A stretch of 64,000 nt of DNA, taken from Pelagibacterium limicola (GTDB lineage: Bacteria > Pseudomonadota > Alphaproteobacteria > Rhizobiales > Devosiaceae). The DNA lies in contig NZ_JADQDB010000002.1 of NCBI RefSeq assembly GCF_015694405.1, positions 372,001 to 436,000 of the forward strand, written 5' to 3'. Below the pieces are notes generated by a model that saw nothing but the letters and a program-made list of their open reading frames with translations, made no database searches and was not told the origin of the DNA. Positions 36,327 through 56,055 of the stretch are shown piece by piece. Position 1 is the first letter of the stretch; the number at the start of each line of letters is the position of its first letter. The translations under genes were made by a program, and so were the position numbers.

Positions 36327-36331
36327 GGGTG

Positions 36332-39273: not shown

Positions 39274-39274
39274 G

Positions 39275-40191: not shown

Positions 40192-40208
40192 TCTGCCCCC
40201 AGAAACGG

Positions 40209-40236: not shown

Positions 40237-40290
40237 CTGTATGTCACCTATTTGTGTGTCCGGGACTATGTCAAAATCCGCGTGACGCTG

Positions 40291-41360: not shown

Positions 41361-43097
41361 TTAAAAGGAAGGCCCGGGATCGCCGGGGTCAGGAGGCGGC
41401 GCAGCGCCGTCCTGCATCGCCTCATAATCGAGATAGACATCGAGATAGGTGTAGGTCCGGCCGCGATCCTTCTTGTAGCCAAGCTCACCCAGCCGGTCCC
41501 CGAACGATCGCTGCTTGGCGGCCGTCAGCCCGTTCTTTTCCGCCCATTTGCAATAGACCGTGTAGAGCACGCCGGCAGGGACCGTCTGGTTAGGCGCGGG
41601 TTTGAGACAGCTTTCGGCAAAGACCGAAACATTGTCCCGCTCGTGCCGGTAATCCTCGGTGAACGCGGTAACCTCGGGTGGGATATAGGGTGTAAGTCCT
41701 TCAACCATATAGAGTTTGATCCCTTCTATCATCCAGTTGAGAATGCCCGACCGTTCGGCATCGAGCCTGTCGTTGAGTTCGGAGGGCGCCATGCGCTCTT
41801 CCTCGGGGATGGTGACACCCCACAGCACCAGCAGCACGCGCCGCCAGATGCCATAGTCCGACCCCGCGATCGAGGGCTTGGTGTTGCCGGTCAATGAGGC
41901 GGTAAAGATCGGCTCGAATTCGAAGATGTTCTGCATCAGGAAGCGGGCCGTCATCTTGGTGCCGCCCGAAACCGCCTTGATCAGATCCTCTTTGAGCGGC
42001 GCATTCTTGGGCAGCTCCTCGACGGTCACGAACCGCGTGTTGAACAGCCGCGCGATGTCGGGGCTGGCCTGCTGACCCTGCCTCTGCCCGTCGCCCGTGA
42101 TCGTTTCGGGCGAAACCACGGTGCGATAGGTGCCGGCAATGCGCCCGAAGATCTCTATAAAGGCAGATTTCCCGTTCGCGCCGGTCCCGTAGTGGAAGGC
42201 AAGCTTTTGTTCGTCATTGCGCCCGATCAGCATCGAATAGGCCTGGAAGACCTGCAAAAAGAGCTGCATCGCCTTGTCGGGCTGCACCTTGGCCAGAAAT
42301 TGTTCCTTGAAGAACGGGCAATCGGCATCCGGGTCGTAGTCGACCTCGGCGCGCTTGGTCACCATGTCGGCTCTGTCATGGGGCCTGAATTCGACACGAG
42401 CGATATAGCGCGGATCGTCCGGGTCCGATTCATCGTGCTCGACTTTCGAGAACACCAGTGTGCCGTTGCGCACATTGAACAGCATGTGATTGGCGTCGAG
42501 CAGGTTCTGGTCGATGGCCTTGAGCGATGCAGCCTGATCGAGCATCGCCCGCGTCTTGCCAGCATTGCCGGACGATATCGCGAACGTCTTGCGTTTCGAG
42601 CGTGTCTGGTAAAGCCCCGAAAGGATTTTCGTCGACCGGCTGATCACGGCCTCCTGCTCGGGGCTGCGCTCGGCCGGTATGATCTTCTGATAGGCCTTGG
42701 CCTCGTCCACGATCGACTGCTTGCGGCGGTCGAGTTTCAGATAGAACGCCTCGAGCTTGATCTTGTCGACAACCTCTTGGGCGAGAAACCGCGCCTTGAG
42801 ATCGCCCTCGTCGCGCTCCCAGTGCGTCCCTCGCCAGGTCAGCCAGCCCATGCCCGAGACATAGGCGAGATCGTCACCGAACCACTCGATCAGCCGCCGT
42901 GCATTGTCGCGATCGTTCTGGTCATATTCGGCGCAGCGCTTGACCCTCGTCCAGTCGACATCGATCTTGTCGACCTCGCCGCCCTCGTCCCAGTCGGGCG
43001 CGGGAGCATCGTCATCGCCATAAAGCGCGTAACCCTCGTCGCGCACATCCTCGGCCTGCCCCATCTGCTCGGCGATCTTGTTCTTCTTTTTCGTCAC
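41361..43097 (-). CDS. Phage replicative helicase (P4-type D5/SF3 primase-helicase C-terminal part)
   Basis: A 578-residue protein. The N-terminal third is charged; the D5_N region (about 70-270) precedes an SF3-type helicase with Walker A GTGANGKS near 312, VTVEELPKNAPLKEDLIKAV and GTKMTARFLMQNIFEFEP, then SYGIWRRVLLVLW-type text (SDYGIWRRVLLVLWGVTIP). It unwinds phage DNA at the origin. A C-terminal winged part (KQRSFGDRLGELGYKKDRG) may bind DNA. Its start overlaps the primase stop (ATGA). Initiator sites are probably close, as in the repeat region just downstream. Confidence 0.9.
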   Translation of the reverse strand: MTKKKNKIAEQMGQAEDVRDEGYALYGDDDAPAPDWDEGGEVDKIDVDWTRVKRCAEYDQNDRDNARRLIEWFGDDLAYVSGMGWLTWRGTHWERDEGDLKARFLAQEVVDKIKLEAFYLKLDRRKQSIVDEAKAYQKIIPAERSPEQEAVISRSTKILSGLYQTRSKRKTFAISSGNAGKTRAMLDQAASLKAIDQNLLDANHMLFNVRNGTLVFSKVEHDESDPDDPRYIARVEFRPHDRADMVTKRAEVDYDPDADCPFFKEQFLAKVQPDKAMQLFLQVFQAYSMLIGRNDEQKLAFHYGTGANGKSAFIEIFGRIAGTYRTVVSPETITGDGQRQGQQASPDIARLFNTRFVTVEELPKNAPLKEDLIKAVSGGTKMTARFLMQNIFEFEPIFTASLTGNTKPSIAGSDYGIWRRVLLVLWGVTIPEEERMAPSELNDRLDAERSGILNWMIEGIKLYMVEGLTPYIPPEVTAFTEDYRHERDNVSVFAESCLKPAPNQTVPAGVLYTVYCKWAEKNGLTAAKQRSFGDRLGELGYKKDRGRTYTYLDVYLDYEAMQDGAAPPPDPGDPGPSF

Positions 43098-44263
43098 TGG
43101 ATCGCCTCGGCATCGGCCATTTGCATGGCAAGGTCGTTGAAATCGAGATCGGGGCCGGGCGCGGGCACGATTTTGCCGCGCCGCCCGGGCTTGAGCCGCA
43201 TGGCCCGCCGGAGCCCGCGCACCAGCTTGTCATGGAGATGACTGCCCTCGCTTTCGGCATCGGCGAGGTAGACAAGCTCGTCGCACCACTCGGGTGGCAA
43301 AAACCCGTCGCTATCCTCCATGTCGGGCTGGTCGTGCACCTGCTTGCCCGCGCCATCGCGCAGCGCCTTGCCGTGCATGTTGCCTAGGTTGATGAGCGCC
43401 CAATAGGCGGTGTCCGGTTCGAACGCGTGGCAGAACACCGACATCGTCGTTTCAATGCCTTCACCCCCGACAATGCGCCTGGCGCCCTTGGGCGTATAAA
43501 GCCGGATCGCGCAGCCGCGCTGCGTGCCCAGCACCTTCTTGGTGGCGCGCGGCCTGCCGGAATCGTCATCGGGCAGCACAAGCCGTCCCTTGGGTTGGGT
43601 GAAATCGAACCAGGTCCGGTGCACACCGGCAAAGCTGCCATCTGGAAACTGGATGCCTGCAGCCATTGCATCGGCATGGGTAATCGTCACCCATTCCCTG
43701 CCCCGCTTTTCGGTCCATGCCAGATCGGGCGCAAAGCGCAGCGCGGCCAGCGCCCCCGGCGCGTTGGCAAGGATCGCAGCACAATCGATCCCGCGCATTG
43801 CGAAATAGTCGAAAACCGGATGCCGGTGCCGCCATTCGGTGGCTTTGCTGCGGTCCCAGATCGCCCGCCCCGCCCTGATGGCCCGCTCGCGATACTCCGC
43901 CGCCTCTTTCTCCCGCCTGGCCTTCTCGGCCTCGGCATCGGCCTTGAGCCGTTCCGCGCGTTCGGGGTCGACCGGCTCATCAGCCGATCGGCCGGTGACG
44001 ATCTCGCAGGCCCGCCTGAAATCGACATTCTGGGTCTTCATCACCAGGTCGATCACCCCGGCGCCGGATATCCCGCAACGGCGGCAGTTGAAGGTGTTCT
44101 TGCCGGTATGAATGGCAAACCGGTCCTTGCCGCCACAGACCGGGCATGGCCCGGCGCGGTCGATACCGGGCCCGAGCGGCCAGCGGGCGCGGATCGCCCA
44201 GGCCTCGCAGCTCGTGCGCAGCGCATCGAGCTTGAGCGCTTCGAGATGTGGCGGGAGCGTCAT
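43094..44263 (-). CDS. Phage primase with zinc-binding and TOPRIM domains
   Basis: A 389-residue protein. Zinc ribbon with CPVCGGKDRF and CRRCG (about 40-70), a charged helical linker rich in Glu/Lys, and a TOPRIM-type catalytic region containing VGGEGIETTMSVFC and DLDFNDLAMQM with acidic residues. It makes primers for phage replication together with the SF3 helicase next in the operon. The ATG at 44263 is used; an open extension upstream crosses the hic operator and is not coding. Confidence 0.88.
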   Translation of the reverse strand: MTLPPHLEALKLDALRTSCEAWAIRARWPLGPGIDRAGPCPVCGGKDRFAIHTGKNTFNCRRCGISGAGVIDLVMKTQNVDFRRACEIVTGRSADEPVDPERAERLKADAEAEKARREKEAAEYRERAIRAGRAIWDRSKATEWRHRHPVFDYFAMRGIDCAAILANAPGALAALRFAPDLAWTEKRGREWVTITHADAMAAGIQFPDGSFAGVHRTWFDFTQPKGRLVLPDDDSGRPRATKKVLGTQRGCAIRLYTPKGARRIVGGEGIETTMSVFCHAFEPDTAYWALINLGNMHGKALRDGAGKQVHDQPDMEDSDGFLPPEWCDELVYLADAESEGSHLHDKLVRGLRRAMRLKPGRRGKIVPAPGPDLDFNDLAMQMADAEAIQ

Positions 44264-44281
44264 ACCGACACCCCAATAAAC

Positions 44282-44334
44282 ATACACATTTTTGTGTCGA
44301 TTTTCCTTGTTACCGACACAAAAATGTGTATACT
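44282..44334. promoter_or_regulatory. hicAB / primase divergent promoter with 18-bp inverted repeat
   Basis: Arms 44282-44299 and 44314-44331 are a perfect 18-bp inverted repeat with a 14-bp spacer. Each arm is itself a dyad ACACA-TTTT/AAAA-TGTGT, so two copies of one operator face each other. A sigma70-like promoter for hicAB overlaps it: TTGTTA at 44307-44312, 16-bp spacing, TATACT at 44329-44334. HicB or the HicAB complex is the natural ligand, and because primase transcription starts on the other side, it may be affected too. Confidence 0.75.
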
Positions 44335-44364
44335 CAAATTCATCGGAACGGGGGAACGAAAGGA

Positions 44365-44568
44365 ATGCGCAGAAACGATCTGATCCGAGCCCTCCGCGCC
44401 TACGCCAGAAAGCGCAACATCGAGTTCTGGGTGGATGAAAAGAAGGGCAAGGGATCGCACTACCGGGTGAAAGTCGGAACCGAGTTGACCACAATCCAGT
44501 CCGACCTCAACCCACCGAGAATTCAGCGAATTCTCAAGCAACTCAAGATCGACCCCGCCGATATCTAG
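44365..44568 (+). CDS. hicA: HicA toxin (mRNA interferase)
   Basis: A 67-residue dsRNA-binding-fold toxin. The catalytic His32 lies in GKGSHYRVKVG; basic N-terminal helix (RRNDLIRALRAYARKRN) and C-terminal ILKQLKIDP complete the fold. HicA cleaves mRNA and stops growth when HicB is lost. The ATG at 44365 follows AAGGA. It is transcribed against all surrounding phage genes, typical for a toxin-antitoxin module carried as cargo, active in the prophage state. Confidence 0.88.
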   Translation: MRRNDLIRALRAYARKRNIEFWVDEKKGKGSHYRVKVGTELTTIQSDLNPPRIQRILKQLKIDPADI

Positions 44569-44576
44569 GCGGGGTC
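44551..44576 (+). terminator. Hairpin at the hicA 3' end
   Basis: Perfect 9-bp stem GACCCCGCC / GGCGGGGTC with an 8-base loop that includes the hicA stop, followed by TTTC. It is terminator-like but has only a short U-tract, so it may act as an attenuator or RNA-processing element between toxin and antitoxin cistrons. Confidence 0.6.
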
Positions 44577-44601
44577 TTTCGCCCGCCACAGGATTGATTG
44601 G

Positions 44602-45036
44602 ATGATTGAAATGTATGGACCCTACCCACTCTCCTTTACCGCTGAGGACGGCGATATCGTCGTGCGCAGCCGGGATTTTCCAGAGCTTCTGACCGCCGGC
44701 GGCACCGAAGCCGAAGCGCTCGAGCTGGCCGAGGACGCCCTGGTCGTGGTCGTGCTCGGCCGACGCGGCGACGGGAGCCCTTTGCCCAAGCCGTCGCGTC
44801 CCGAAGCGGGCGAACAGCTCGTCTACCTGCCCGCCGCCGTTGCCGCCAAGTTGGCCGTCCTCGACGCCTTCGAGGCGGCCGGCATCAGCAAGGCCGAGCT
44901 CGGTCGGCGCCTGGGCGTGGCTGTCAACGAGGTACAGCGCATCCTCGATGTCGACCATAAGACCAAGCTCAATCGCCTGGAGGCCGCCGCCCGCGCACTT
45001 GGTGTGCGATTGATCGTAAGCGCCGAAGCGGCCTGA
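44602..45036 (+). CDS. hicB: HicB antitoxin with C-terminal DNA-binding domain
   Basis: A 144-residue antitoxin. The N-terminal partial RNase H-like fold (PLSFTAEDGDIVVRSRDFPE, then TEAEALELAEDALVVVVLGR) neutralises HicA; the C-terminal helix-turn-helix (KAELGRRLGVAVNEVQRILD and LEAAARALGVRL) binds the operator. The two paired dyads upstream of hicA are the expected target. It begins at ATG 44602, 33 bp after hicA. Confidence 0.88.
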   Translation: MIEMYGPYPLSFTAEDGDIVVRSRDFPELLTAGGTEAEALELAEDALVVVVLGRRGDGSPLPKPSRPEAGEQLVYLPAAVAAKLAVLDAFEAAGISKAELGRRLGVAVNEVQRILDVDHKTKLNRLEAAARALGVRLIVSAEAA

Positions 45037-45062
45037 CTGGGCTGTCGCGGAGGGTATGCAAA

Positions 45063-45227
45063 TCATGGCGCGCCCTCCGCGATTGCGGCAGCGATCGCCG
45101 ACCGCGCCTCAACAGGAACCGCATAGCCGCGCCCCCAGACCGTGCTGAAATCGATGCCCTTGGGCCGGAGTTTCGTCCGGACCTTGGACATCCAGACATC
45201 GCCAAAGAGAAACGGCTGCAGTCTCAA
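45063..45227 (-). CDS. 54-residue CtrA-like recognition-helix/wing fragment
   Basis: TTG start at 45227 overlapping the stop of the helicase-methyltransferase gene (TTGA), stop at 45063-45065. The product contains FGDVWMSKVRTKLRPKGIDF and VWGRGYAVP, clearly related to IVDVWVSKLRRKLNPLGITF and WGRGWSL of the phage protein at 50386-50790 and to the end of the CtrA winged helix. Only the recognition helix and wing are present; the first helices are missing. It may be a decoy, a dimer-only DNA binder, or a remnant. The overlap favours real translation. Confidence 0.6.
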   Translation of the reverse strand: MRLQPFLFGDVWMSKVRTKLRPKGIDFSTVWGRGYAVPVEARSAIAAAIAEGAP

Positions 45228-47863
45228 GCCACGGCCTCCCCGCTCTCTTCCCTGACCGGCTCGGCAAAGTCGAAAAGCCCCGGCATGGCCATGTCCCGCG
45301 CCGCCGCCTCGACATAGGTGCAGCCGTCAAGGAAATAGGCCGGGTTGAGTTCGACCCCCACGCCCTTGCGCTTGGCCCTGATCGCCCGGTACGGCACCGT
45401 CATCAGCCCCGCGAACGGATCAAACACCGTCTCCCCGGGCTCCGAATATTGCGCGATGGCCCTATCGACCAGGTCGAACTGCAGCGGGCAGAGATGCATT
45501 TCTCGGCCCTTGGCCGATTGCAGCGTGTTCATGGTCAACATGCGGGTGATGTCGGTCCACACCCCAGGATCGGGTGAGTGCGTGGGCAGCAGCATGAAGG
45601 TCGAGGGCAGCGCCCCGCGCTCTTCCAGCGCCTCGGCGATTTTGACGTGGTGTTCGAAATCATAGACCACCGAGAGGCTGTATTCCCGCCACACCTTGAA
45701 GATCACATTGGCGTCGAGGCCTAAAATTTCTTCCGGTGCCAGCAGCCGGTCCCCGCTCGATCGCCGGTATCCATGCGCATCGAGCTGCCAGCGCGCCCGC
45801 GAATAGCCCGGCCCGCTCCATTTCCCATCGCCAAGATGCTCGCGCTTGGTCTTTTTGACCTTTTTATCGGCATAGCCATCGGAACGATCACTCGGCGGCT
45901 TCCTGAAATGGAGGAGATATTCGGGCATCCCGTTGCCCATCCGGCTCCCGTCCTTGCACTGCTCGGACCAGCCCAGCCGGTATGTCTGGTTGTTTTCCCG
46001 CACAACATCGGTGGTCACCGGCACGCGCGAGAGAAAGGCAAAGCCGTGACGCTGGAACCGGGCAATGCAGTCATCGGAAAACGGGTAAACCGTCTGGAAG
46101 CCCAGCCCGTTGATCCCGCCCGGCACAATCCTGTCCTTGACATGGATCGCCGCCACCCGGCCCGGCGCCAGCACCCGCAACAGTTCGGGGATCAGGAAAT
46201 CCATCTGGCTCCAGAAATGCTCATTGTCGTCGGTGTGCCCGAAATCAGCGTAGTTCGGCGAATATTCATACTGGGTCGAGAACGGGATCGATGTGACGAT
46301 CAGGTCGACGCTGTCGGCGTCCATGCGGCTCGTTTCCTCGACACAATCATTGTTGACCAGCCGGAAATTCTCACCCCTGACCTCGATCCTCTCGACGCCC
46401 ATGGCGCGCTTGAGACTCTCCGCCATCGCGCCCTCATTGAGCCCGTATTTGCGGATGATGTCCGTCATGATGGCCATCTGTTCCTCGTGCCTTCTCCACT
46501 TGGCGACAAGCACATCGCGCACCGGGCGCTCGGCCTCGGTGTAGATGAGGTCGAGCCGCACCGTGCTGGTTTGCAGGAAGCGCTGGATGCGGTGCACCGC
46601 CTGGATGAAATCGTTGAACTTGAACCCGATGCCTAAAAAGATCGCCCAGGCGCAATAGCGCTGGAAATTGCAGCCCGACCCCGCGATCACCGGCTTTGCC
46701 GCCAGCTCTTGGATCTTGCCATCGGAGAAATCGATGATCGTCTGCTCGCGGATATCGAGATCCTGTGAACCGTAAACGCTGGCAACGCCGGGAATGGCCT
46801 TCTCGATCGCCTCGCGCTCGGCTTCAAGATCATGCCAGATCAGCCGGTGGGCGTCAGGGTCCTCATTGCGCAATGCCATGAGCTTGTCGATCCGCCCGGC
46901 AAGGCTGTCGCGCTTTTCCCGCGCCGCGTCGACCAGCGATGCCGCCGCATTGCGCAGCAACCGCCCCTGCCCCGATTTTTCTTCCCCCGCCGTCGAGTGA
47001 TCGGCAGGGATTTCATGCCAGTTGATGACCATGTCGGGCAGTTCATAGCCCTCATCGGAAAACCCGAGGTCCGAGGGCTTCTGGACGAACAGCCCCCAGC
47101 TCGCCACCCACAGCCAGAATTCGCGCTCCTTGTGCGGATGGATGGTGAGCTGGTCGGCCTTTTCCGAATTGCGCTTGAAGAACCGCGTCTTGGCCTGCCC
47201 GATATCCATCACCTCGAGGAATGCCGAATAGGCCAGCAATTCGATATATTGATTGGGTGAGGGCGTTGCCGTGGCGACGAATTTGAACGCGATCCCGTCA
47301 AAGAGCCGCATGAACTCGCGGAACGTCTTGCTCCCGCCGAACCCGCGCAGGCACGATGCCTCGTCGAGGGTCGCGGCATCGAATTCGCGCGGATCGATCT
47401 TGCCGTCGCGCACGCTCTCGTAATTTGTGATGTAGAGCCCATCCGGCCCCGCCGCCTCGCTCGTGCGGATGAAGCTGATGGCGATGATCCGGCGCGGATC
47501 CTCGGCAATCCATGCCGCCAGCGCTGCCCGCTGCGCGTCAGTGATGCGCGGGTGAACACCCGTATTGAGCAGTTCGGCATCGCGCTTGAATTCCTGCCGC
47601 ACCCCGAGCGGGGCGACGATCAGCCCGCGCCCGCCTGCCCGCATGGCGACGAGCCGCATGATCTCGAGCTGGATCACCGTCTTGCCCAGCCCGAATGCTG
47701 CAAACACCGCCCGCCTGCCGCCCCGGCACGCCCATTTGACGATGGCCCGGTGATGGCCGAGAAGGATCGGGTTGATCTCTTCGTCGGCCACATCGAACCC
47801 CGCCTTGGGCGCCATGGCGATCTTGGCTTCGAGGAACTGGCGATAGGTGAGCGGGAGATTCAT
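45224..47863 (-). CDS. Helicase-DNA methyltransferase fusion
   Basis: An 879-residue two-part protein. Residues 1 to about 500 form an SF2 (SNF2-like) helicase: FGLGKT at 57-62, LDEASCLRGFGG as motif II, VATATPSPNQ as motif III and AVHRIQRFLQTSTVRLDLIY as motif VI. The C-terminal part is an N4/N6-type methyltransferase with DLIVTSIPFSTQYEYSPNY in the place of the S/D-PP-Y motif and FDPFAGLMTVPYRAIRAKRK as the SAM-binding motif. It would methylate DNA, protecting it or changing regulation. SIPF instead of the usual SPPY/F is a variant also known from phage homologues. Coupled to both neighbours. Confidence 0.83.
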   Translation of the reverse strand: MNLPLTYRQFLEAKIAMAPKAGFDVADEEINPILLGHHRAIVKWACRGGRRAVFAAFGLGKTVIQLEIMRLVAMRAGGRGLIVAPLGVRQEFKRDAELLNTGVHPRITDAQRAALAAWIAEDPRRIIAISFIRTSEAAGPDGLYITNYESVRDGKIDPREFDAATLDEASCLRGFGGSKTFREFMRLFDGIAFKFVATATPSPNQYIELLAYSAFLEVMDIGQAKTRFFKRNSEKADQLTIHPHKEREFWLWVASWGLFVQKPSDLGFSDEGYELPDMVINWHEIPADHSTAGEEKSGQGRLLRNAAASLVDAAREKRDSLAGRIDKLMALRNEDPDAHRLIWHDLEAEREAIEKAIPGVASVYGSQDLDIREQTIIDFSDGKIQELAAKPVIAGSGCNFQRYCAWAIFLGIGFKFNDFIQAVHRIQRFLQTSTVRLDLIYTEAERPVRDVLVAKWRRHEEQMAIMTDIIRKYGLNEGAMAESLKRAMGVERIEVRGENFRLVNNDCVEETSRMDADSVDLIVTSIPFSTQYEYSPNYADFGHTDDNEHFWSQMDFLIPELLRVLAPGRVAAIHVKDRIVPGGINGLGFQTVYPFSDDCIARFQRHGFAFLSRVPVTTDVVRENNQTYRLGWSEQCKDGSRMGNGMPEYLLHFRKPPSDRSDGYADKKVKKTKREHLGDGKWSGPGYSRARWQLDAHGYRRSSGDRLLAPEEILGLDANVIFKVWREYSLSVVYDFEHHVKIAEALEERGALPSTFMLLPTHSPDPGVWTDITRMLTMNTLQSAKGREMHLCPLQFDLVDRAIAQYSEPGETVFDPFAGLMTVPYRAIRAKRKGVGVELNPAYFLDGCTYVEAAARDMAMPGLFDFAEPVREESGEAVA

Positions 47864-49767
47864 GCGACCGCCTCGCCGCGCTGATCGGCATTGACCGCCA
47901 GGTCGGCGCAATTCGCCGCGACGATCGCTTCGGCCAGCGGCGGGCAAACCGAATTGCCGCAGCACGAGCCCTGCACCGTCATTGAGAGCTTTGAGCCGTC
48001 GGGACGGCGGTCGATGATGTAGGAATCGGGAAAGCCCTGCGCCCGGAACCGCTCGCGCGGGGTCAGCATCCGCATGCCGATATCGGCAATAGCATATGTC
48101 TCGCCGTCGATATCGAGCGTCACCAGTCCCATCCGAGGCTTGGTCGACAGGGTGTGCATCGGATCATCAAGTTCCGACCACTGACCCCCGGTGCCGTAAT
48201 ATTTTGTCAGGAACCCCGAGATCAGCGCGGCATGATTGCCCTGCGCCGAGAGCGTCCGGATCGGCTCGTCGGCTGGCGCAGCGCGCCTTTCGCTGCCCCG
48301 CATGTTTTGCAGGTGCGCCGCGATTACGCTCTGCTGCGACCCTTTCGCAGTCACAGTCGAGATTGGTTCATTTGCCGATCGTGCTGGCTGACCTGGGTGA
48401 GACCCTGCCGTATGCTGGGCAAGGAACGCGGCGACGACGCCAAATTTCGGCGCACCGGCCATTACGGTATCGACCGGTTCATCCGCCCCGCTGCCCACAC
48501 CGTTTTGGGTGAAGCGCGAAAGGTGAACGGCGGCTAACACCCCTTCATTTCCGCCCGGAACCACAGTAGCTGCTGGAACTTCGACCGAGCGTGTTCTTGG
48601 CGCTTGGCCTTCGCGCTCCTGATATCGGGGCACCAGATATGGCGCGATGACGGCATGACTACCGGCCGTCGTTTGTGTGCGCAGAGGATCCTCGACGCTG
48701 TTGATCCCGTTCCGGGCCGCAGCACTTGCCATGTCCGTCCGCACGACAGCGGGAACGATGATCGCGTTCTGATCTTTCGGGCTTGCCGTGATGGTGTGCA
48801 TCGGCTCATCGGCCGCGCGATTGGACCCACCATGCTGCGCGGCCGTGACAACAGGCATCACCAGCCCCCAGGCATCGCGCGCCGCCGCCACTGTATGGGC
48901 AGGCTCGTCTATGCTCTGGCCCCGGAAATGCTCCCCACCATGATTGGCAACGACGATGAAGGGCTTTTTCGCCTCCAGCACATAGCGCACCACGCCCCGC
49001 GCGATCCGGGTCATCGTGGCATCGGCTAGCGGCCGCACCGCACGCAGGCCGTACTTGGCCATGATTTCTTCGGACGTCTCGAAGATCGAGGGGCATGGCA
49101 GCGACCAGTCGATGATCTCGGCGGCCGTCCTGTATGGCAGCAACTTGCCCTGCGCGATCAGCTTGGCGTCCTCGGGCTTTTTCGGGTCGCCATGTGTGCG
49201 CTTGGGCCACACGATCGGCTTGCCGTCGCGCCGGGCGATCATGAAGAACCGCTTGCGGATGGTCGGCGCGCCATAATCGCAGGCGCGCAGCTCGCGCCAT
49301 TGCACCTTGTACCCGGCCTTTTTCAGCCGCCGCGTCCACTCCTCGAAGGTGTGCCCGCGCAATTCGATGATGGGCTTGCCATCATCATAAAGCGGTCCCC
49401 ATGTGCGGAATTCTTCGACATTCTCGAGGATGATGACGTCGGGCTTGGCTTCCTCGGCCCAGCGCACCACGACCCATGCAAGGTCGCGGATATTGCGGTC
49501 CATCGGCTTGCCGCCCTTGGCCTTGGAAAAATGCTTGCAGTCCGGCGAGGCCCAGAACAGCCCGACCGGCCTGCCCTTGGTCACCTCGAGCGGCGCGACA
49601 TCCCAGATATTGCTGTCCAGATGAACCGTGTTGGGATGGTTGACCTCGTGCATGGCCAGCGCGTCGGCGCTGTGATTGATCGCATAATCGGGCGAGCGGC
49701 CCAGCGCCATTTCAATGCCTGTCGAAGCACCCCCGCCACCGGCAAAACTGTCGATGATCAGCTTCAT
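47860..49767 (-). CDS. C5-cytosine DNA methyltransferase with tandem-repeat insertion
   Basis: A 635-residue enzyme. Motif I IIDSFAGGGGASTGIEMALG at 4-23, catalytic Cys77 in ASPDCKHFS, ENV at 115-117 (motif VI), RACDYGAPTIRKRFF at 161-175 (motif VIII) and GNSVCPPLAEAI at 604-615 (motif X). Between VIII and IX, residues 286-545 contain eight units of about 35 residues, each with a DEP-x-x-T core (for example ADEPMHT, ADEPVDT, ADEPIRT). That region should include or replace the target recognition domain. ATG at 49767 overlaps the gcrA-like stop. Start upstream of this is a shadow. Confidence 0.9.
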   Translation of the reverse strand: MKLIIDSFAGGGGASTGIEMALGRSPDYAINHSADALAMHEVNHPNTVHLDSNIWDVAPLEVTKGRPVGLFWASPDCKHFSKAKGGKPMDRNIRDLAWVVVRWAEEAKPDVIILENVEEFRTWGPLYDDGKPIIELRGHTFEEWTRRLKKAGYKVQWRELRACDYGAPTIRKRFFMIARRDGKPIVWPKRTHGDPKKPEDAKLIAQGKLLPYRTAAEIIDWSLPCPSIFETSEEIMAKYGLRAVRPLADATMTRIARGVVRYVLEAKKPFIVVANHGGEHFRGQSIDEPAHTVAAARDAWGLVMPVVTAAQHGGSNRAADEPMHTITASPKDQNAIIVPAVVRTDMASAAARNGINSVEDPLRTQTTAGSHAVIAPYLVPRYQEREGQAPRTRSVEVPAATVVPGGNEGVLAAVHLSRFTQNGVGSGADEPVDTVMAGAPKFGVVAAFLAQHTAGSHPGQPARSANEPISTVTAKGSQQSVIAAHLQNMRGSERRAAPADEPIRTLSAQGNHAALISGFLTKYYGTGGQWSELDDPMHTLSTKPRMGLVTLDIDGETYAIADIGMRMLTPRERFRAQGFPDSYIIDRRPDGSKLSMTVQGSCCGNSVCPPLAEAIVAANCADLAVNADQRGEAVA

Positions 49768-50270
49768 GCCGCCACCCGCCTTTCCGGCGCCGGAAGCGAT
49801 ATCTCGAGATGGGTCGCGCAATAGGTGTGATGGCCATCCCGGGCGGCGTTGCAGAACAGCGTCTCGCCCGCCGGCCCGTCCACCGGCCAGCAACACCCGG
49901 TGCGCTCGAGCAGCGGGACAGGCGCGGTGCCGTGGAGTGGTGCCCATGCCGCCGAGCGCAGCAGCCTGATGCCCTCGGCATCGGTGCAGGCCTGCTTGAT
50001 GCCGCGCGGTGTTTTCTGGGCCACGGGCTTTGCCGCGACCGATGCCGCTTGCGGCCTGGCCGGGCGCTTTCGCGCGATTTCCGAGCGCTTGCGCTTGGGC
50101 GTGCTCTGGGCGGCGGCGCGCTTTGGCAGCTTGAGCCGGTGCACCTTTCCGATCACGGCCATGCGCGTAACCCCGCCCAGATGCGCGGCGATCTCGGCGG
50201 CCGAAAGGCCTTCGGCCCACATATGCGCAAGCGTCTTGACGCGCCCTTCCGTCCAGAATGCGGCACTCAT
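49764..50270 (-). CDS. Phage-encoded GcrA homologue
   Basis: A 168-residue protein. The N-terminus WTEGRVKTLAHMWAEGLSAA and HLGGVTRMAVIGKVHRLKL is the GcrA DNA-binding helix-turn-helix; the C-terminus keeps CCWPVDG, FCNAA and YCATHLEI, the cysteine/histidine signature that contacts sigma70 in GcrA. Host GcrA activates promoters with methylated GAnTC sites during S phase. The middle (about 50-100) is a basic, flexible linker. It overlaps the membrane peptide stop (TGATG) and the methyltransferase start (ATGA). This looks like a full-length, intact regulator. Confidence 0.88.
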   Translation of the reverse strand: MSAAFWTEGRVKTLAHMWAEGLSAAEIAAHLGGVTRMAVIGKVHRLKLPKRAAAQSTPKRKRSEIARKRPARPQAASVAAKPVAQKTPRGIKQACTDAEGIRLLRSAAWAPLHGTAPVPLLERTGCCWPVDGPAGETLFCNAARDGHHTYCATHLEISLPAPERRVAA

Positions 50271-50386
50271 CAGGCCAGCCCTCCGATGATGATGAGAATG
50301 AAAGCGATCGCGCCGGCCGTGGCGCAGCCTGCCGCTATCGCAAGGATGGTTTGAGCCCATCTGTCCGCGAGCGCGCCCCTCCGCAT
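50270..50386 (-). CDS. 38-residue membrane peptide in the early operon
   Basis: ATG at 50386, TGA at 50270-50272, overlapping both neighbours by single-base TGATG junctions. The peptide is MRRGALADRWAQTILAIAAG followed by a hydrophobic stretch ending FILIIIGGLA, a single membrane span with a basic N-terminus. Translational coupling on both sides argues it is made. Function unknown. Confidence 0.6.
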   Translation of the reverse strand: MRRGALADRWAQTILAIAAGCATAGAIAFILIIIGGLA

Positions 50387-50790
50387 CAGGCCATCTCCCG
50401 CCTGCCGAGAGAGTCGAGCGCCGCACGGCCCGCATGGGTCAGCGACCATCCCCGGCCCCAACTGGTGAGAAAGGTGATGCCCAAGGGATTGAGCTTGCGC
50501 CGGAGCTTTGACACCCACACATCGACGATCTTGGGATCGGGCGCATCCTCGCGGTCGAGATAGATCGCCATCATGGCCTGTTCCCGCGACACCTGCTTGC
50601 GCGCGATCATCATGCGCAACAGGGCCGTTTCGTTTCGCGTCAGTTCCGGCAAGCCATCCGGCAGCGGTTCTTCCCCCTCGAGCTGGCCGCGCAACTGCCG
50701 CACCGTCTCTTCGAGTTCGTCGACCCGGGCGCGCAGGCGCTGATTGTCCTGCTGGTAGAATTCAACCGTGAACCTGTCCGCCGATTGCAT
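50386..50790 (-). CDS. CtrA-like DNA-binding protein lacking a receiver domain
   Basis: A 134-residue protein. Residues about 8-40 form a coiled coil (FYQQDNQRLRARVDELEETV), replacing the receiver. Residues about 48-125 are an OmpR/PhoB-type winged helix: LTRNETALLRMMIARKQVSR, then PKIVDVWVSKLRRKLNPLGI and TSWGRGWSLT. The recognition helix is very close to KIIDVFICKLRKKL of CtrA, which binds TTAA-N7-TTAA sites. Without a receiver it would be active regardless of CckA signalling and may dimerise through the coiled coil. Similarity is read by eye, not by search. Confidence 0.72.
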   Translation of the reverse strand: MQSADRFTVEFYQQDNQRLRARVDELEETVRQLRGQLEGEEPLPDGLPELTRNETALLRMMIARKQVSREQAMMAIYLDREDAPDPKIVDVWVSKLRRKLNPLGITFLTSWGRGWSLTHAGRAALDSLGRREMA

Positions 50791-50792
50791 GG

Positions 50793-51032
50793 TTAAAACT
50801 CCCCCAGCACCTTGACGCCGGGATTGACCCGGTTGTTGTGGCCATCGTCCCGCATCACTTCGGTGTCGAACGCATCGAGCGCGGCCCGCAGGCGCGGCAC
50901 ATCGGCGATGGACAGATTGAGCTTGCCCTGGAACCCCAGTTCCATTTCGAACCGGTGCGCCCCATTGGGATCGAGCCGCGCAAGCGCGGGCATCGGGTCG
51001 GGGCTGATATGGATCGGCAGCGAGCGCGGCAC
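50793..51032 (-). CDS. Phage hypothetical protein in the early operon
   Basis: A 79-residue protein starting MPRSLPIHISPDP, with RFEMELGFQGKLNLSIADVP and a C-terminal NNRVNPGVKVLGEF. No known motif. The GTG at 51032 follows GGAGGG, whereas the GTG at 51047 has no site before it; either is possible. Two bases separate its stop from the CtrA-like gene, so it belongs to the same operon. Confidence 0.55.
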   Translation of the reverse strand: MPRSLPIHISPDPMPALARLDPNGAHRFEMELGFQGKLNLSIADVPRLRAALDAFDTEVMRDDGHNNRVNPGVKVLGEF

Positions 51033-51158
51033 CTCACAGCCCTCCACAAAGAAACTGGCCGGGCCGACGGATCGGGGGAAACCCGCGGACCCGGCCAGAG
51101 TGTGCGCGCTGGAGGTGTGCGCGCAGGGAGGAGAGGGTGAAAGCTCTGACTGTGAGGC

Positions 51159-51398
51159 TCATTCTGCCGCCGCCAAATTTTGGCGCTCCCAGCCAAGGCG
51201 GCAATCGTGCATGTCCTGCGGCGTCACTTCGCCATTGGTGGCATCGAAGATCGCCTGCACCACCGTTGCCGGGGGACGGCGTTCGCCAGTCTCGAATCGC
51301 TGCAGGTCGCGCGCCGGGTTGCTACCGGAAAGGCCGATCATCGAGGCCATATCCGCAAGCGTCAGTTGCCGTTCTTTGCGCCAGTCAATTAGTTTCAT
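51159..51398 (-). CDS. Cro-like helix-turn-helix regulator
   Basis: A 79-residue protein with LIDWRKERQLTLADMASMIG and the HTH continuing LSGSNPARDLQRFETGERRP. It diverges from the S24 repressor gene across three operator dyads, the genetic position of Cro. It is the first gene of the minus-strand early operon. A promoter with TTGACA (51435-51430) and GCTATA (51412-51407) on the minus strand lies upstream, and operator 1 overlaps its -10. Confidence 0.8.
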   Translation of the reverse strand: MKLIDWRKERQLTLADMASMIGLSGSNPARDLQRFETGERRPPATVVQAIFDATNGEVTPQDMHDCRLGWERQNLAAAE

Positions 51399-51407
51399 AT
51401 TCTAGAT

Positions 51408-51483
51408 ATAGCCGCAACGGCTACTTAACTGTCAAGCGCAAAATAGCCGCTAAGGCTATGACAGGCGTAGCCACGCAGGCTAT
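51408..51483. promoter_or_regulatory. Right-type operator region: three 17-bp dyads between divergent regulators
   Basis: ATAGCCGCAACGGCTAC (51408-51424), ATAGCCGCTAAGGCTAT (51443-51459) and GTAGCCACGCAGGCTAT (51467-51483) share the pattern RTAGCC-N5-GGCTAY. Dyad 1 overlaps the -10 of the cro-side promoter. Dyad 3 overlaps the promoter of the repressor gene: ATGACA at 51458, 17-bp spacing, TATAAC at 51481-51486. This is the lambda OR arrangement with three sites. The repressor is the expected ligand. Confidence 0.87.
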
Positions 51484-51492
51484 AACCGGGAA

Positions 51493-52125
51493 ATGCGTAA
51501 CCGGATCAAAGAATTAATGCGGCTGCAAAAACTGTCGCGGGACGATGTCGCCGAAGCCATCGGCGCGCATCCCGTGACCGTGAGCAAGCTCATTAGCGGG
51601 AAGACGCCGCTCAATACGAACTGGCTCGAAAAGCTCTCTGCGCTGTTCCGCGTACCACCCGAACAGATCATAGCTGCGCCACCGACCGTACGCGCGGTCC
51701 AGGTCAAATATAGTGTCCAGGCTGGTCATTGGGCCGAGACGGTCGAATGGGCACATGACGACTGGTACGATGTCGCCATCCCCGACGATCCCGACCTGCG
51801 CCTCTACGAATTGTTCGGCGCCGAGACGCGCGGCCCGTCGATGGACAAGCGCTATCCCGAGGGGACCGTCGTCATCTGCACAAGCATGGTCGAGACGCGA
51901 GAGGACATCCAGCCAGGCAAGCGCTACATCATCGAGCGCGAGCGCGCCGACGGCATGCGCGAGGCTACCGTCAAGCTGCTTTGGCGCGACGATGCCGGAA
52001 AGTTCTGGCTGCTGCCCGAATCGAACGATCCCCGCTTTCAACAGCCGATTGCCCTTGATGATATCGAGGACACGACCGTCCGGATCGTGGGCCGAATTCG
52101 CTATTCCGTTCAAAGGGAAGAGTGA
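51493..52125 (+). CDS. CI/LexA-like phage repressor with S24 peptidase domain
   Basis: A 210-residue repressor. HTH at about 13-38 (KLSRDDVAEAIGAHPVTVSK), Ala77-Gly78 in SVQAGHW as the likely self-cleavage site, Ser116 in ETRGPSMDKRYPEG and Lys161 in EATVKLLWR as the catalytic dyad. All parts needed for RecA-stimulated cleavage are present, so the prophage should be SOS-inducible. The ATG lies only 6-7 bases after the end of the predicted -10 box, so the mRNA may be leaderless, as lambda cI from PRM. Confidence 0.92.
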   Translation: MRNRIKELMRLQKLSRDDVAEAIGAHPVTVSKLISGKTPLNTNWLEKLSALFRVPPEQIIAAPPTVRAVQVKYSVQAGHWAETVEWAHDDWYDVAIPDDPDLRLYELFGAETRGPSMDKRYPEGTVVICTSMVETREDIQPGKRYIIERERADGMREATVKLLWRDDAGKFWLLPESNDPRFQQPIALDDIEDTTVRIVGRIRYSVQREE

Positions 52126-52141
52126 CAGGTTAATTCAAATC

Positions 52142-52195
52142 GTAGCCGTTACGGCTATTTTTTGTTGACAGTGATGTAGCCGTTGCGGCTATTAT
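52142..52195 (+). promoter_or_regulatory. Left-type operator/promoter of the plus-strand accessory operon
   Basis: Two more copies of the repressor dyad, GTAGCCGTTACGGCTAT at 52142-52158 and GTAGCCGTTGCGGCTAT at 52176-52192, flank and overlap a sigma70-like promoter with a perfect TTGACA at 52165-52170 and TATTAT at 52190-52195 (19-bp spacing; CTATTA at 18 is the alternative). Binding to the second dyad would cover the -10. It should silence the operon from 52223 on in a lysogen. Confidence 0.85.
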
Positions 52196-52222
52196 GCCCC
52201 ATCTTAACCGATGGAGGCAGTG

Positions 52223-52633
52223 ATGCTGCAATCTTCCCTCGCCGGTCCCGCCCGGCCCCAGCCGTCCCCTGACAAATCGATCATCGACCAGCTGGCCGAG
52301 GACATGGTCGACCTCACCGCCGCAGAAGGATGCGCCACGCGCGACCGGCTGCTTGAGCGCGGCTGGGGCGATATCGAACTGGCCTCTTATGAAACCGAGG
52401 CCCGCCAGCGCGCCCGCGCGCTGATGAACCGGGCCGAGACGAGCCCTGCGGCCTCCCGCGCCCATCGCATCGCTTCTGCCGCCCGCGAGATCGGGCACCT
52501 AATGCCGACCATGCAGCAGGTCGTGATGCACCTCCAGAACCGGCGCTTCTCCAAACCCGAACTCGACGACATCCTGGCTGACGCCATCGCCAAGGCAGGC
52601 GACAATTTCGCCCACGCTGGCGGCGCGTCGTGA
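52223..52633 (+). CDS. Phage hypothetical protein, first gene of the plus-strand early operon
   Basis: A 136-residue helical protein. It has SIIDQLAEDMVDLTAAEGCA, RDRLLERGWGDIELASYETE and ASAAREIGHLMPTMQQVVMH, with no known family. The ATG at 52223 is favoured by GGAGG five bases before it over an ATG 12 bases upstream. As the first gene after the repressed promoter it would be made early after infection or induction. Confidence 0.65.
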   Translation: MLQSSLAGPARPQPSPDKSIIDQLAEDMVDLTAAEGCATRDRLLERGWGDIELASYETEARQRARALMNRAETSPAASRAHRIASAAREIGHLMPTMQQVVMHLQNRRFSKPELDDILADAIAKAGDNFAHAGGAS

Positions 52634-52731
52634 CGATCCTCTTCGCCCTCATCGCCGAATACGCCCAGCCGGTCCTCATCGGCTGCGGCACCATCGGCTT
52701 TGCCGCTCACCTTGCTATCAACGGGTTCTGA
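52630..52731 (+). CDS. 33-residue membrane peptide
   Basis: GTG at 52630 overlapping the previous stop (GTGA), stop at 52729-52731. The peptide starts with TILFALIAEYAQPVLIGCG after the initiator and ends in a second hydrophobic piece (TIGFAAHLAINGF). It is nearly all hydrophobic, so a membrane location is predicted. Overlap with the previous gene is the main evidence for translation. Function unknown. Confidence 0.5.
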   Translation: MTILFALIAEYAQPVLIGCGTIGFAAHLAINGF

Positions 52732-52734
52732 CCA

Positions 52735-53337
52735 ATGGCGCACTTCTCGTCACACCTCATGACGACGGCCGCGCCGGTGCCCTTCGATCTGGCTGCACCG
52801 CGGCCCGAAATGCTCGATCGCACCGCGCTGGCCTATCAGCTCGCGCGCATCACCTGCCTCAATGGCAATGTGAAATTCCGCTATTCCGTGGCACAGCGCA
52901 GCCTGATCGTCGCTGAGGCGATCCCGCAACTCGTTTGGCGGGTCTACGGCCTCTTGCGCTTTGCACCGGCCATTATCTTTGGCGATCCGCCCCAGCCGGT
53001 GCGCGACCATCTGCTCGTTACTGGCCGCTCCGGATTGCGGGAACGGGAAATTCTCGCCTGTGTCTGGTCGCATTTCGGGCTGGCATCACCTGACGCCGCA
53101 GCGGCCCGCGCTGTTGACTTTGCCTGCATGCAGGTCGAGGCGACCGAACATCGCGACGTCATGTTCAACAATGCGACAGCCCTGCCGCTCTCGGCAAAGC
53201 CACTGGCCCGCGCAATCAAGCCGATGCCCGATGAAAGCAAGGTCGAGGAGGCGTTTATCGCCGCACTCGATTCCTGCCTCTACTGGCATCGTGAGGCGGT
53301 TGGACCGGGTCAGCGCAAAGACGAGGCGACCGCGTGA
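52735..53337 (+). CDS. Degenerate HD-domain (YfbR-like) protein
   Basis: A 200-residue protein whose region 35-95 resembles YfbR-type HD phosphohydrolases: NGNVKFRYSVAQRSLIVAEA, then LLRFAPAIIFGDPPQPVRDH. In active enzymes the first motif is AQHS and the second is LHDAPE; here both metal-binding His residues and the HD pair are replaced (AQRS, LRFAPA). It therefore probably lacks nucleotidase activity and may act as an inhibitor or a structural partner. Followed by a MazG-like gene, another nucleotide-metabolism fold. Confidence 0.65.
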   Translation: MAHFSSHLMTTAAPVPFDLAAPRPEMLDRTALAYQLARITCLNGNVKFRYSVAQRSLIVAEAIPQLVWRVYGLLRFAPAIIFGDPPQPVRDHLLVTGRSGLREREILACVWSHFGLASPDAAAARAVDFACMQVEATEHRDVMFNNATALPLSAKPLARAIKPMPDESKVEEAFIAALDSCLYWHREAVGPGQRKDEATA

Positions 53338-53645
53338 TGCCGGACGGCCAGATTTCCCCATGGATGCCTGAACAGGATCGTATCCGGATCGCCGTCCTCG
53401 GCAAGCTGGCCGAGGAATGCAACGAGCTGGCAGCGCGCGCGGCCCGCTGCATCATCCATGGCCTGCACGAAGTCGATCCTGACAGCGGGCGGTACAACAT
53501 CGACGAACTTGAGCGCGAAATGGCGGACGTCTTCGCCTGCCTCTCCGTCGCCCGCATGCGGCTCCGCGCCGAGCCGGACATCAACCGCATTGAAACCAAG
53601 ATGCAGGGCTTCGCCCGCTGGCATCGCATGATCGAGGACAGGTGA
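53337..53645 (+). CDS. MazG-like nucleotide pyrophosphohydrolase family protein
   Basis: A 102-residue all-helical protein with LAEECNELAARAARCIIHGL and NIDELEREMADVFACLSVAR. The EExxE and ExxxAD patterns correspond to the metal-binding helices of the MazG/dUTPase-like superfamily. Phage MazG proteins alter host (p)ppGpp or dNTP pools. The ATG at 53337 overlaps the previous stop (TGATG); a GTG three bases earlier is an alternative. Activity not proven since the motif is only partly standard. Confidence 0.68.
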   Translation: MPDGQISPWMPEQDRIRIAVLGKLAEECNELAARAARCIIHGLHEVDPDSGRYNIDELEREMADVFACLSVARMRLRAEPDINRIETKMQGFARWHRMIEDR

Positions 53646-54055
53646 TGGAAACGCCCCTCAAGCCCTGCCCCTTCTGCAGCTCCAATGCCGTGTTCTCGCC
53701 TGTCCAGAGCGAACCCGGCAAATATGACTGGGAACGCGGCCGTGTCGAGTGCGTCATGTGCGATGCCCGCACAGGCGGAACACTCGCCCGCGCTGTAGCC
53801 GAAGCTGCATGGAACCGTCGTCCCGCCGCTTTGGCGCTACCCCTCGCCGAGATCGAGGCCTTCGTCGCCGAAACCCGCGACCTGGTCGAAAAGGTCACTT
53901 TCGACGAAAGCGGCCGGCTTGTCGCTGGCCAGTGGGTCGGCGGCAATGGTGGCCTGCTTGGCCGCGAAACCCTCACCGCCGCCGATACGCTCCGCCGCCG
54001 CCTCGACATCATCGCGACATTGATCGCCAGCCATCACCAACAGGAGGGCCAGTGA
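53645..54055 (+). CDS. Lar family restriction alleviation-like protein
   Basis: A 136-residue protein beginning METPLKPCPFCSSNAVFSPV with a second cysteine pair in VECVMCDARTGG and the EAAWNRRP motif, the typical Lar/zinc-ribbon beginning of phage proteins (Rac Lar modulates type I restriction). The C-terminal 70 residues (LAEIEAFVAETRDLVEKVTF onward) are an unrelated helical extension. A restriction-alleviation role is only inferred by family name. Confidence 0.72.
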   Translation: METPLKPCPFCSSNAVFSPVQSEPGKYDWERGRVECVMCDARTGGTLARAVAEAAWNRRPAALALPLAEIEAFVAETRDLVEKVTFDESGRLVAGQWVGGNGGLLGRETLTAADTLRRRLDIIATLIASHHQQEGQ

Positions 54056-54294
54056 TGCCCAAACTGATCCACCCCGAAACCATCAGCTTTCGTGCCAGCG
54101 TCACAGAGGCGGAAATTCGCGAGCGGATGGCCCATGAAGTGCTCGAGCAAATCGGCGGCATCGGCCGGGACGGCAAGCGCCTGCCCGGCATCACCGTCAA
54201 GGTCAATCGCGGCAATGGCCGGGCCGGCGGCTACACGATCGATATCTCCGGCCCCGCGCCCGCCCGCATCTTTCTACCAAGGGAGGGCGAATAG
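54055..54294 (+). CDS. Phage hypothetical protein, 79 residues
   Basis: Starts with ATG at 54055 overlapping the previous stop, with CAGGAGGG upstream. Sequence has FRASVTEAEIRERMAHEVLE, a basic GRDGKRLPGITVKVNRGNGR and a beta end with YTIDISGPAP. Alpha/beta layout, no known family. Tightly packed in the accessory operon. Confidence 0.6.
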   Translation: MPKLIHPETISFRASVTEAEIRERMAHEVLEQIGGIGRDGKRLPGITVKVNRGNGRAGGYTIDISGPAPARIFLPREGE

Positions 54295-54681
54295 ATGCCC
54301 GTCAAATACATCAAATGGTACACGCGCGAGCTGCTGCGCGCCGAGCCAAAGGCATTCTTTGTTTTCGGCGATAATTGTCGGCGGATCGGACATGGCGGGC
54401 AGGCTGCAGCCTGTCGAGACGAACCTAACGCCATCGGCGTCGCCACGCTTTATGCGCCGGGGTTTTTTTACGATCCCAACGATCCTGTCGCCCTCGCCCA
54501 TGTGACCAATGACCTTGCGCGGGTCGGGCGAGAGCTTGCCGGCGGCATCACCGTCTATGCACCCATCGACGGTCTGGGTACAGGCCTCGCCCGTCTCCCC
54601 GAACACGCCCCAAATCTTCACCGCCTGATCCTCGCCTTCTTCCGCGCGGCACCCGGCGAACCCTGCCCATGGAAGGATTGA
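54295..54681 (+). CDS. DUF7831-like phage protein
   Basis: A 128-residue protein: YTRELLRAEPKAFFVFGDNC, RIGHGGQAAACRDEPNAIGV and VYAPIDGLGTGLARLPEHAP. This set (GDN, GGQAAACR, DG-x-GTGLA) is common to a phage/plasmid family of unknown function, sometimes compared with macro-like or nucleotide-binding folds. Conserved polar motifs suggest an enzyme or ligand binder. Follows its neighbour without a gap. Confidence 0.68.
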   Translation: MPVKYIKWYTRELLRAEPKAFFVFGDNCRRIGHGGQAAACRDEPNAIGVATLYAPGFFYDPNDPVALAHVTNDLARVGRELAGGITVYAPIDGLGTGLARLPEHAPNLHRLILAFFRAAPGEPCPWKD

Positions 54682-54683
54682 TC

Positions 54684-55817: not shown

Positions 55818-55821
55818 CGCC

Positions 55822-56055
55822 ATGATCAACCGCCCACGCCAGAAAAAGCCTGTCACGGCCGAGCGCGTCGATAACGCCCTCGACATTCTGGCGTGGGTGA
55901 TTTCCAAGGCAGGATCGGACGCGAACCTGCTCGCGCCTATCTGGAAGCGCCTCGAGGCCGAACGTGAACGGCTCGTCGAGGAAGAGGCGATCCTCAACGC
56001 AGCGCGCGATCGTCTCAAACGATCGAAGGATCGAATGGCAACTCAATCCGCTTGA
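55822..56055 (+). CDS. Phage hypothetical protein, 77 residues, converging on the integrase
   Basis: Highly charged helical protein: INRPRQKKPVTAERVDNALD, then KRLEAERERLVEEEAILNAA. No family. ATG at 55822, five bases after the previous stop. Its 3' end overlaps the end of the integrase gene by 41 bp tail to tail. Small basic proteins beside integrases can be excisionases, but no helix-turn-helix was identified here. Confidence 0.6.
   Translation: MINRPRQKKPVTAERVDNALDILAWVISKAGSDANLLAPIWKRLEAERERLVEEEAILNAARDRLKRSKDRMATQSA

Follow-up and report, generated by a model that had tools for sequence, protein, structure and literature searches.

Does a temperate phage of an alphaproteobacterium carry its own copy of the circuit by which its host times cell division? 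The question is raised by a 64,000-nucleotide stretch of the Pelagibacterium limicola genome (contig NZ_JADQDB010000002.1, positions 372,001 to 436,000; hereafter the window), in which a prophage operon encodes a receiver-free winged helix-turn-helix (wHTH) protein resembling the DNA-binding part of CtrA, a GcrA homologue and two DNA methyltransferases. CtrA and GcrA are regulators by which the host times cell division, and an earlier note on this DNA had proposed that the phage overrides their circuit as one unit. The domains, the homologies, the operators, the gene order and the occurrence of the parts apart from one another were observed directly. They are best explained by two regulators with cell-cycle-type DNA-binding parts that would steer sigma70 transcription, as separate accessory genes assembled by module shuffling and not as a copied circuit; we give this reading a probability of roughly 0.62.

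Gene order of the early operon

The operon and its control region contain the following features.

52143..52191: two operators TAGCC-N5-GGCTA (at 52143 and 52177), beyond the repressor end
51493..52125, plus strand: repressor with helix-turn-helix (HTH) and S24 peptidase domains; PF00717 E 2.8e-10, HTH_3 E 6.3e-8
51409..51482: three operators TAGCC-N5-GGCTA (at 51409, 51444 and 51468), between repressor and early operon
51159..51398, minus strand: XRE/Cro-type HTH protein of 79 amino acids (aa), first early-operon gene; HTH_31 E 7.2e-5, HTH_3 E 9.3e-5
50793..51047, minus strand: 84-aa protein, no family found; relative in a sister prophage, L303 (E 3.4e-20)
50386..50790, minus strand: receiver-free CtrA-type winged helix P0001, 134 aa; Trans_reg_C PF00486 E 2.7e-9
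50270..50386, minus strand: 38-aa hydrophobic peptide between the wHTH gene and gcrA, with TGATG at both ends
49764..50270, minus strand: GcrA homologue P0002, 168 aa; PF07750 E 6.4e-25
47860..49767, minus strand: C5-cytosine DNA methyltransferase, 635 aa; PF00145 E 1.7e-33, phrog_116 E 1.8e-103
45224..47863, minus strand: DNA helicase with an N6/N4 methyltransferase domain, 879 aa; phrog_16 E 1.5e-115, PF01555 N6_N4_Mtase E 8.7e-14
45063..45227, minus strand: 54-codon open reading frame (ORF), corresponding to the latter half of a winged helix of CtrA type; PF00486 positions 47-76 of 77

The operon ORFs, all on the minus strand, were confirmed at the positions listed in the earlier note, and direct reading bore out the junctions of 1-4 bp that it had described. 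TGATG at 50388-50384 joins the wHTH stop to the start of the 38-aa peptide, TGATG at 50272-50268 joins that peptide to gcrA, ATGA at 49767-49764 joins gcrA to the C5 methyltransferase, ATGA at 47863-47860 joins the two methyltransferases, and TTGA at 45227-45224 joins the helicase-methyltransferase to the 54-codon fragment. All the genes that had been named were present, but the 38-aa peptide, which matched no family in Pfam or PHROG, had been overlooked. Small hydrophobic peptides right behind a wHTH gene were seen by eye in two phages, here at 50270-50386 (minus strand) and in locus L004 at about 8350-8580.

The five TAGCC-N5-GGCTA copies flanking the repressor are all perfect. With up to one mismatch the motif occurs six times in the window, where 0.70 would be expected, and none of 100 shuffles reached six. 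The Cro-type gene stands opposite the repressor, and both of its HTH matches lie just under the Pfam cut-off. Repressor, Cro-type gene, common operators, integrase and attachment repeats are all present, and the window carries genes for tail fibre, tape measure, major head, portal and terminase at 18-40 kb. As had been proposed, these genes form the early operon (PR-type) of a temperate tailed phage whose host is an alphaproteobacterium.

The two regulators

P0001 scored 37.4 bits on PF00486 (cut-off 26.2), and Pfam found in it no receiver of the CheY type, with its phosphorylated Asp, that belongs to CtrA; the NCBIfam CtrA model gave 27.5 bits against a cut-off of 350. The host genome encodes ten proteins besides P0001 above the Trans_reg_C cut-off, one of which (L056, G000:C9) we take to be CtrA from reading its sequence. 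When the host genome was searched with P0001, CtrA alone among these ten OmpR-type regulators passed E 0.001, and BLAST gave 42.0 bits for CtrA and 32.7 for the second-best host regulator. CtrA was the top host match in BLAST for 20 of 23 full-length proteins, P0001 included, and a profile of the phage proteins scored host CtrA at 74.2 bits and the runner-up regulator at 48.5. Across the 19 columns of the recognition helix, 11 residues of P0001 are identical to CtrA, compared with 4-8 in the nine other host regulators; the 23 other phage proteins in the set have 9-16, with the exception of L128, which has 6. The Trp of the W-G-x-G wing is kept in P0001. A second Trp, that of T-x-W-G, is found in CtrA, in none of the nine other host regulators, and in 82 of 111 wHTH ORFs (25 of the rest are off the pattern and 4 have a different residue).

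A domain tree of 24 hand-chosen sequences placed CtrA amid the phage proteins, with all nine of the remaining host regulators beyond one branch (support 89/94). The larger quick tree, built from the 91 of 117 wHTH domains that remained after a similarity filter, was consistent with this placement: eight of the nine other regulators lay past a branch of 97%, and the long-branched L055 did not. AlphaFold2 modelled P0001 as a helix (2-37) and a winged helix (about 50-117) with a mean predicted local distance difference test (pLDDT) score of 92. Its best solved structures were response-regulator DNA-binding domains, none below E 0.001; no CtrA DNA-binding domain was found among the best 50 of 718 structure matches, and for the solved CtrA chain, which was located by sequence, the match was restricted to the receiver. 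CtrA kinship of the P0001 winged helix is likely, not proven. The earlier description of 50386-50790 as receiver-free and CtrA-like is supported, the CtrA likeness by score and profile, by the recognition helix and by the position in the tree.

The receiver-free form extends to its relatives. An IMG/VR search with an alignment of relatives yielded 180 stretches for the CtrA-like wHTH, and the best 80 were kept; with the window, L004, L008 and 20 regions from the order search they form a wHTH-anchored set of 103 loci, or 93 distinct loci after removal of 10 duplicates. At E 1e-8, relatives occurred in 2 of 136 genomes of the host family and in 20 of 397 genomes sampled across the host's order, the own genome being counted in both. 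Single-sequence searches with P0001 hit 4 of 50,697 named phage records, one viral contig and 0 genome contigs. With the host CtrA receiver as phmmer query, no receiver was found at E 0.001 among the ORFs of the wHTH-anchored loci or of 80 GcrA-anchored loci; judged by these ORFs, the receiver-free state is the rule in wHTH loci. P0001 carries the heptad series L19, V23, L26, V30, L33 and L37, and the leucines in the helix that leads into the domain are conserved across the 20 members of alignment A5, Leu33 being invariant and Leu26 nearly so. Host CtrA and P0001 share the DNA-binding domain, the recognition helix and the W-G-x-G wing, whereas CtrA has a receiver and no coiled coil. The series and the model suggest that a putative N-terminal coiled coil stands where CtrA has its receiver, which would give constant dimerisation in place of dimerisation by phosphorylation. 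At least two wHTH ORFs occur in 18 of the 93 distinct loci (the window with its fragment included; L085, L087, L109 and L123 are examples), often in tandem. In at least three wHTH proteins (L046:9363-10268, L239:841-1371 and L257:2300-3334) a CPCCGAPV stretch, zinc ribbon-like by eye, replaces the coiled coil.

P0002 reached 88.8 bits on PF07750 (cut-off 26.9) and 100.1 bits on the GcrA equivalog model NF050816 (cut-off 280). On these scores it is a GcrA homologue and not the cellular orthologue; the host's cellular GcrA is encoded elsewhere in the genome, and host CtrA and a CcrM homologue are likewise present. The sequence match of P0002 to Caulobacter crescentus GcrA in 7ye1 (E 1.3e-20) covers both domains, for which PMC7403470 gives DNA-binding and sigma-interacting roles. 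Its structure model matched 7ye1_G (E 8.6e-5) and the DNA-binding domain 5yiv (E 1.4e-3, TMt 0.94), the sigma-interacting half matched 5yix_B (TMt 0.79, probability 1.00), and the linker between the two domains was of low confidence. Family, sequence and structure matches over two domains therefore support the GcrA homologue claimed at 49764-50270. Single-sequence searches with P0002 found 10 named phage records and one viral contig. Its closest relative in 61 related genomes, the own counted, lies in the sister prophage of the same genus.

We propose that the CtrA-like protein would most likely be always dimeric through its coiled coil and bind CtrA-type half sites without phosphorylation, and that the GcrA homologue would most likely bind sigma70 domain 2 and bring RNA polymerase to chosen promoters. 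In their likeliest use, the two regulators would steer sigma70 transcription once the repressor leaves its five operators, a timing that we infer, acting on phage DNA first and possibly on host promoters. The CtrA-like gene and the GcrA gene would be independent accessory genes of many phages, and their co-occurrence here would come from module shuffling.

Several results weigh against this proposal. A simple scan of 51300-52300 found no sigma70 promoter, and the best structure match for the sigma-binding half alone reached just E 0.11 (5yix_B). In its recognition motif P0002 carries Met in place of an Asn that is found in 78 of 90 distinct DNA-binding domains of GcrA proteins (a count without repeated DNA-binding segments and low-scoring GcrA rows), so its site may differ from methylated GANTC. 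TTAA-N7-TTAA is not in excess in the window, with 2 near-matches against 2.5 expected and neither of them within the prophage, and hence the scan yielded no target on phage DNA. The recognition helix of P0001 reads WVSKL where that of CtrA reads FICKL, with Trp and Ser in place of Phe and Cys. Finally, an alternative tree in which the host regulators are united and the phage proteins stand apart was not rejected by the approximately unbiased (AU) test (p 0.39, 83 columns). The earlier note had named grouping with generic OmpR regulators as a result that would refute its reading; the tree with the 89/94 branch shows no such grouping and so did not refute it, but the AU result leaves that separation less firm. 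As for other candidate sites, TTAACCAT, presumably the CtrA half site, was considered as a CtrA box and not used: it occurs twice in the window against 0.48 expected, but 9 of 100 shuffles held as many. One of the copies spans the wHTH start codon (50789-50796, minus strand).

The AU result also bears on the alternative that survives best, namely that the winged helix derives from a generic OmpR-type regulator and owes its CtrA likeness to convergence in the recognition helix. Consistent with such an origin, another host regulator tops CtrA for 3 of the 23 full-length proteins (L045, L048 and L049), and L004 ranks CtrA first only at E 1.8. We consider it unlikely, given that CtrA comes first for the 20 others, P0001 among them, and that most of the wHTH ORFs carry the T-x-W-G Trp, which CtrA alone has among the host regulators.

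Association of the parts across phage loci

Neighbours of the GcrA, wHTH and DnaA-domain-IV types were called with hidden Markov models (HMMs) built for this analysis. A methyltransferase lay within two genes of the wHTH in 23 of 90 distinct loci, where a gene picked at random on the same strand would give 10.4 (none of 5000 draws came as high), and adjoined it in 11 of 90, against 6.5 expected (p 0.037); the window is itself one of the 23 loci, some of which are related. DnaA-domain-IV-like proteins were found near the wHTH in 19 of 93 loci. Both counts favour an alternative in which the CtrA-like protein serves the replication or modification machinery of the phage, by origin marking or methylation control, and not transcription. 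We regard this role as distinctly unlikely: the protein binds DNA with a domain of the kind found in OmpR-type transcription regulators, and many early genes are expected close together in early regions.

Among the 19 DnaA-domain-IV-like proteins, the four that were checked with Pfam (L004, L034, L036 and L037) all passed. Two ORFs near a CtrA-like wHTH, L036:12247-12816 (minus strand) and L037:7065-7931 (plus strand), encode fusions of DnaA domain IV with the DNA-binding domain of GcrA, with PF07750 and PF08299 (Bac_DnaA_C) both above cut-off; a third fusion suggested by the HMM, L206:9974-10531, was discarded, as Pfam gave GcrA alone. The GcrA-DnaA fusions and the pairing of wHTH with DnaA domain IV are the more novel lead. 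A tentative and on balance doubtful generalization would be that alphaproteobacterial phages share headless cell-cycle domains (the coiled-coil CtrA wHTH, GcrA and DnaA domain IV, sometimes in tandem or fused), with which they might bind the regulatory sites of the host free of phosphorylation and ATP control, and hence seize promoters and possibly the origin.

The claim that the set acts as one unit found no support in the sister prophage L303 or in the wider survey. L303 and the window phage have in common the integrase (88% identical, with one stop codon in the L303 frame), the terminase, the two primases and the 84-aa gene. In the early operon of L303 an MT-A70 methyltransferase is followed by a GcrA that is 51% identical to P0002 (E 2.5e-37 by phmmer); no match to the wHTH, the C5 enzyme or the helicase-methyltransferase was found in the 19.5 kb examined, nor a wHTH relative at E 1e-8 in its genome. 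GcrA is therefore the common part, and the others come and go. GcrA was called in 14 of the 93 distinct wHTH loci by our HMM and lay above the Pfam cut-off in 11; the passing cases include L047, over the DNA-binding part only, and the L036 and L037 fusions, and L040, L069 and L070 failed. Conversely, the GcrA-anchored loci (the best 80 of 148 viral stretches, duplicates kept) held a wHTH in 3 of 80 and a DnaA-IV-like protein in 16 of 80. In 80 helicase loci (the best of 533, duplicates kept) we counted GcrA in 9, wHTH in 5 and both in 1 (Fisher p 0.46). No association of wHTH with GcrA was thus seen across the wHTH-, GcrA- and helicase-anchored loci. GcrA stands directly before the helicase in seven of the latter (L226, L227, L231, L233, L237, L238 and L269) and wHTH does so in L239 and L249; the two seem to use one slot. 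In one helicase locus, L257, the wHTH and GcrA ORFs share a 4-bp overlap and are followed by a helicase-methyltransferase and a C5 enzyme, which means that the gene set of the window is not unique; both regulators there pass Pfam narrowly (wHTH 27.3 bits against 26.2, GcrA 28.5 against 26.9).

The part assigned to the methyltransferases in a cell-cycle imitation was not supported either. As candidate CcrM mimics they were rejected: the helicase-methyltransferase scored 30.5 bits on NF050803 (cut-off 830), and the second methyltransferase is of the C5 type. The host CcrM homologue, at 634.5 bits, is under 830 too, a cut-off reached by 0 of 14 control genomes. Relatives of the helicase-methyltransferase occur in 310 of 50,697 phage records, 146 of them named Mycobacterium and 85 Flavobacterium, and its likeness to the phrog_16 enzymes was judged by family and sequence match alone. 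Both methyltransferases are, as far as their families tell, ordinary phage modification enzymes. For an override in which the CtrA-like protein, GcrA and methylation jointly set replication and division early, there remain the real homology to CtrA and GcrA, a host that has CtrA, GcrA and a CcrM homologue, and the combination in L257. Set beside the gene content of L303, the 3 of 80 GcrA loci with a wHTH, CtrA boxes at chance level and methyltransferases that are not CcrM, they leave such an override improbable, and a circuit copied as a unit was rejected on the same loci.

Least probable, and in our judgement very unlikely, is a writer-reader pair in which GcrA reads the mark of neighbouring phage methyltransferases. 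In its favour, seven of the 80 helicase loci have GcrA immediately before the helicase-methyltransferase, the motif Asn is replaced in 5 of the 9 GcrA domains that come from helicase loci or the window but in 7 of the remaining 81 (p 0.0017 by Fisher test, in a grouping picked after the data were seen and with L257 below the score filter), and a methyltransferase lies within two genes of GcrA in 10 of 70 distinct loci against 6.1 expected (p 0.048). Against it, a methyltransferase adjoins GcrA in 4 of 70 against 3.7 expected (p 0.52), the helicase-linked GcrA proteins are divergent overall, which may be all that the residue difference reflects, and the GcrA of L303 keeps Asn beside its MT-A70 enzyme. 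The adjoining count likewise led us to reject GcrA-methyltransferase pairing as a rule.

The 54-codon ORF had been counted as a second CtrA-like element. Its similarity to P0001 is real (the wHTH search with phmmer picked it up at E 1e-8; 52.8% identity over 36 aa), but it is half a domain and scores 14.9 bits on PF00486, under the cut-off of 26.2. The similarity does not start until the recognition helix, roughly nine codons past the overlap with the helicase stop, and the end is winged-helix-like. No counterpart was found 3' of the helicase in the 80 helicase loci. A working protein was rejected, an ORF of 54 codons being, by estimate, not unusual at this G+C; in the simplest reading of the sequence the fragment is probably a recombination scar.

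The suggestion that such an operon may not have been described stands in part. Phage GcrA is in print for phiCbK-like phages (PMC3556154), Atu_ph08 (PMC6630229) and a phiLM21-like prophage (PMC12429752), and in the first two it is proposed to act on host transcription or replication genes. These proteins are phage-encoded, as here; by comparison, P0002 belongs to the early operon of a temperate siphophage, where its neighbours are a CtrA-like wHTH and a C5 methyltransferase, and has Met for the usual Asn. Roseobacter phage RDJL6 (OK283306) has a short wHTH annotated as 'transcriptional regulator CtrA' (UFK26716.1), receiver-free by length and eye as P0001 is and 42.6% identical to it over 49% of the query; its N-terminal stretch is, by eye, not a coiled coil. 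Host CtrA is described as acting on phage promoters (PMC9437464), and phage Jorvik as needing host CtrA (PMC10589892); in both a host protein works on phage DNA, whereas here the phage supplies its own CtrA-like protein. In the open-access literature, which was covered in part and mostly without subscription papers, we found no description of a receiver-free CtrA-like phage family, of a coiled coil in the receiver's place, of DnaA-domain-IV companions or of a GcrA-DnaA fusion. If the coiled coil replaces phosphorylation-driven dimerisation, these proteins would offer a natural test of the purpose of the CtrA receiver and a tool that keeps CtrA sites occupied. Phage GcrA and CtrA-like genes recur and move independently, so cell-cycle studies in lysogens should count the extra copies.

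Prophage setting and neighbouring genes

The prophage that carries the operon is delimited by its attachment repeats, and further features lie around the early region.

15794..57542: prophage of about 41.7 kb, between direct repeats 15794-15813 and 57523-57542 (19 of 20 bases identical)
57527-57613: tRNA-Leu gene, with the right attachment repeat (57523-57542) at its end
56015-57445: integrase
43094..44263, minus strand: phage primase of the zinc-ribbon/Toprim type; phrog_510 E 2.6e-65

Two small genes at 44248-45036 (plus strand), HicA/HicB-like by eye, are opposed to the operon and lie between the 54-codon fragment and the primase; in Pfam HicA came up at no better than E 0.089, and the second gene gave an HTH under cut-off. 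The gene at 54669-55817 (plus strand) contains a 27-bp repeat with 17 copies in register at 55038-55700 and weakly matches a collagen-like tail family. GANTC is scarce in the prophage (15794-57542), where the observed/expected ratio is 0.20 (32 sites) compared with 0.49 (44 sites) in the host flanks, and CTNAG is likewise low, at 0.30 in the prophage and 0.47 in the host flanks.

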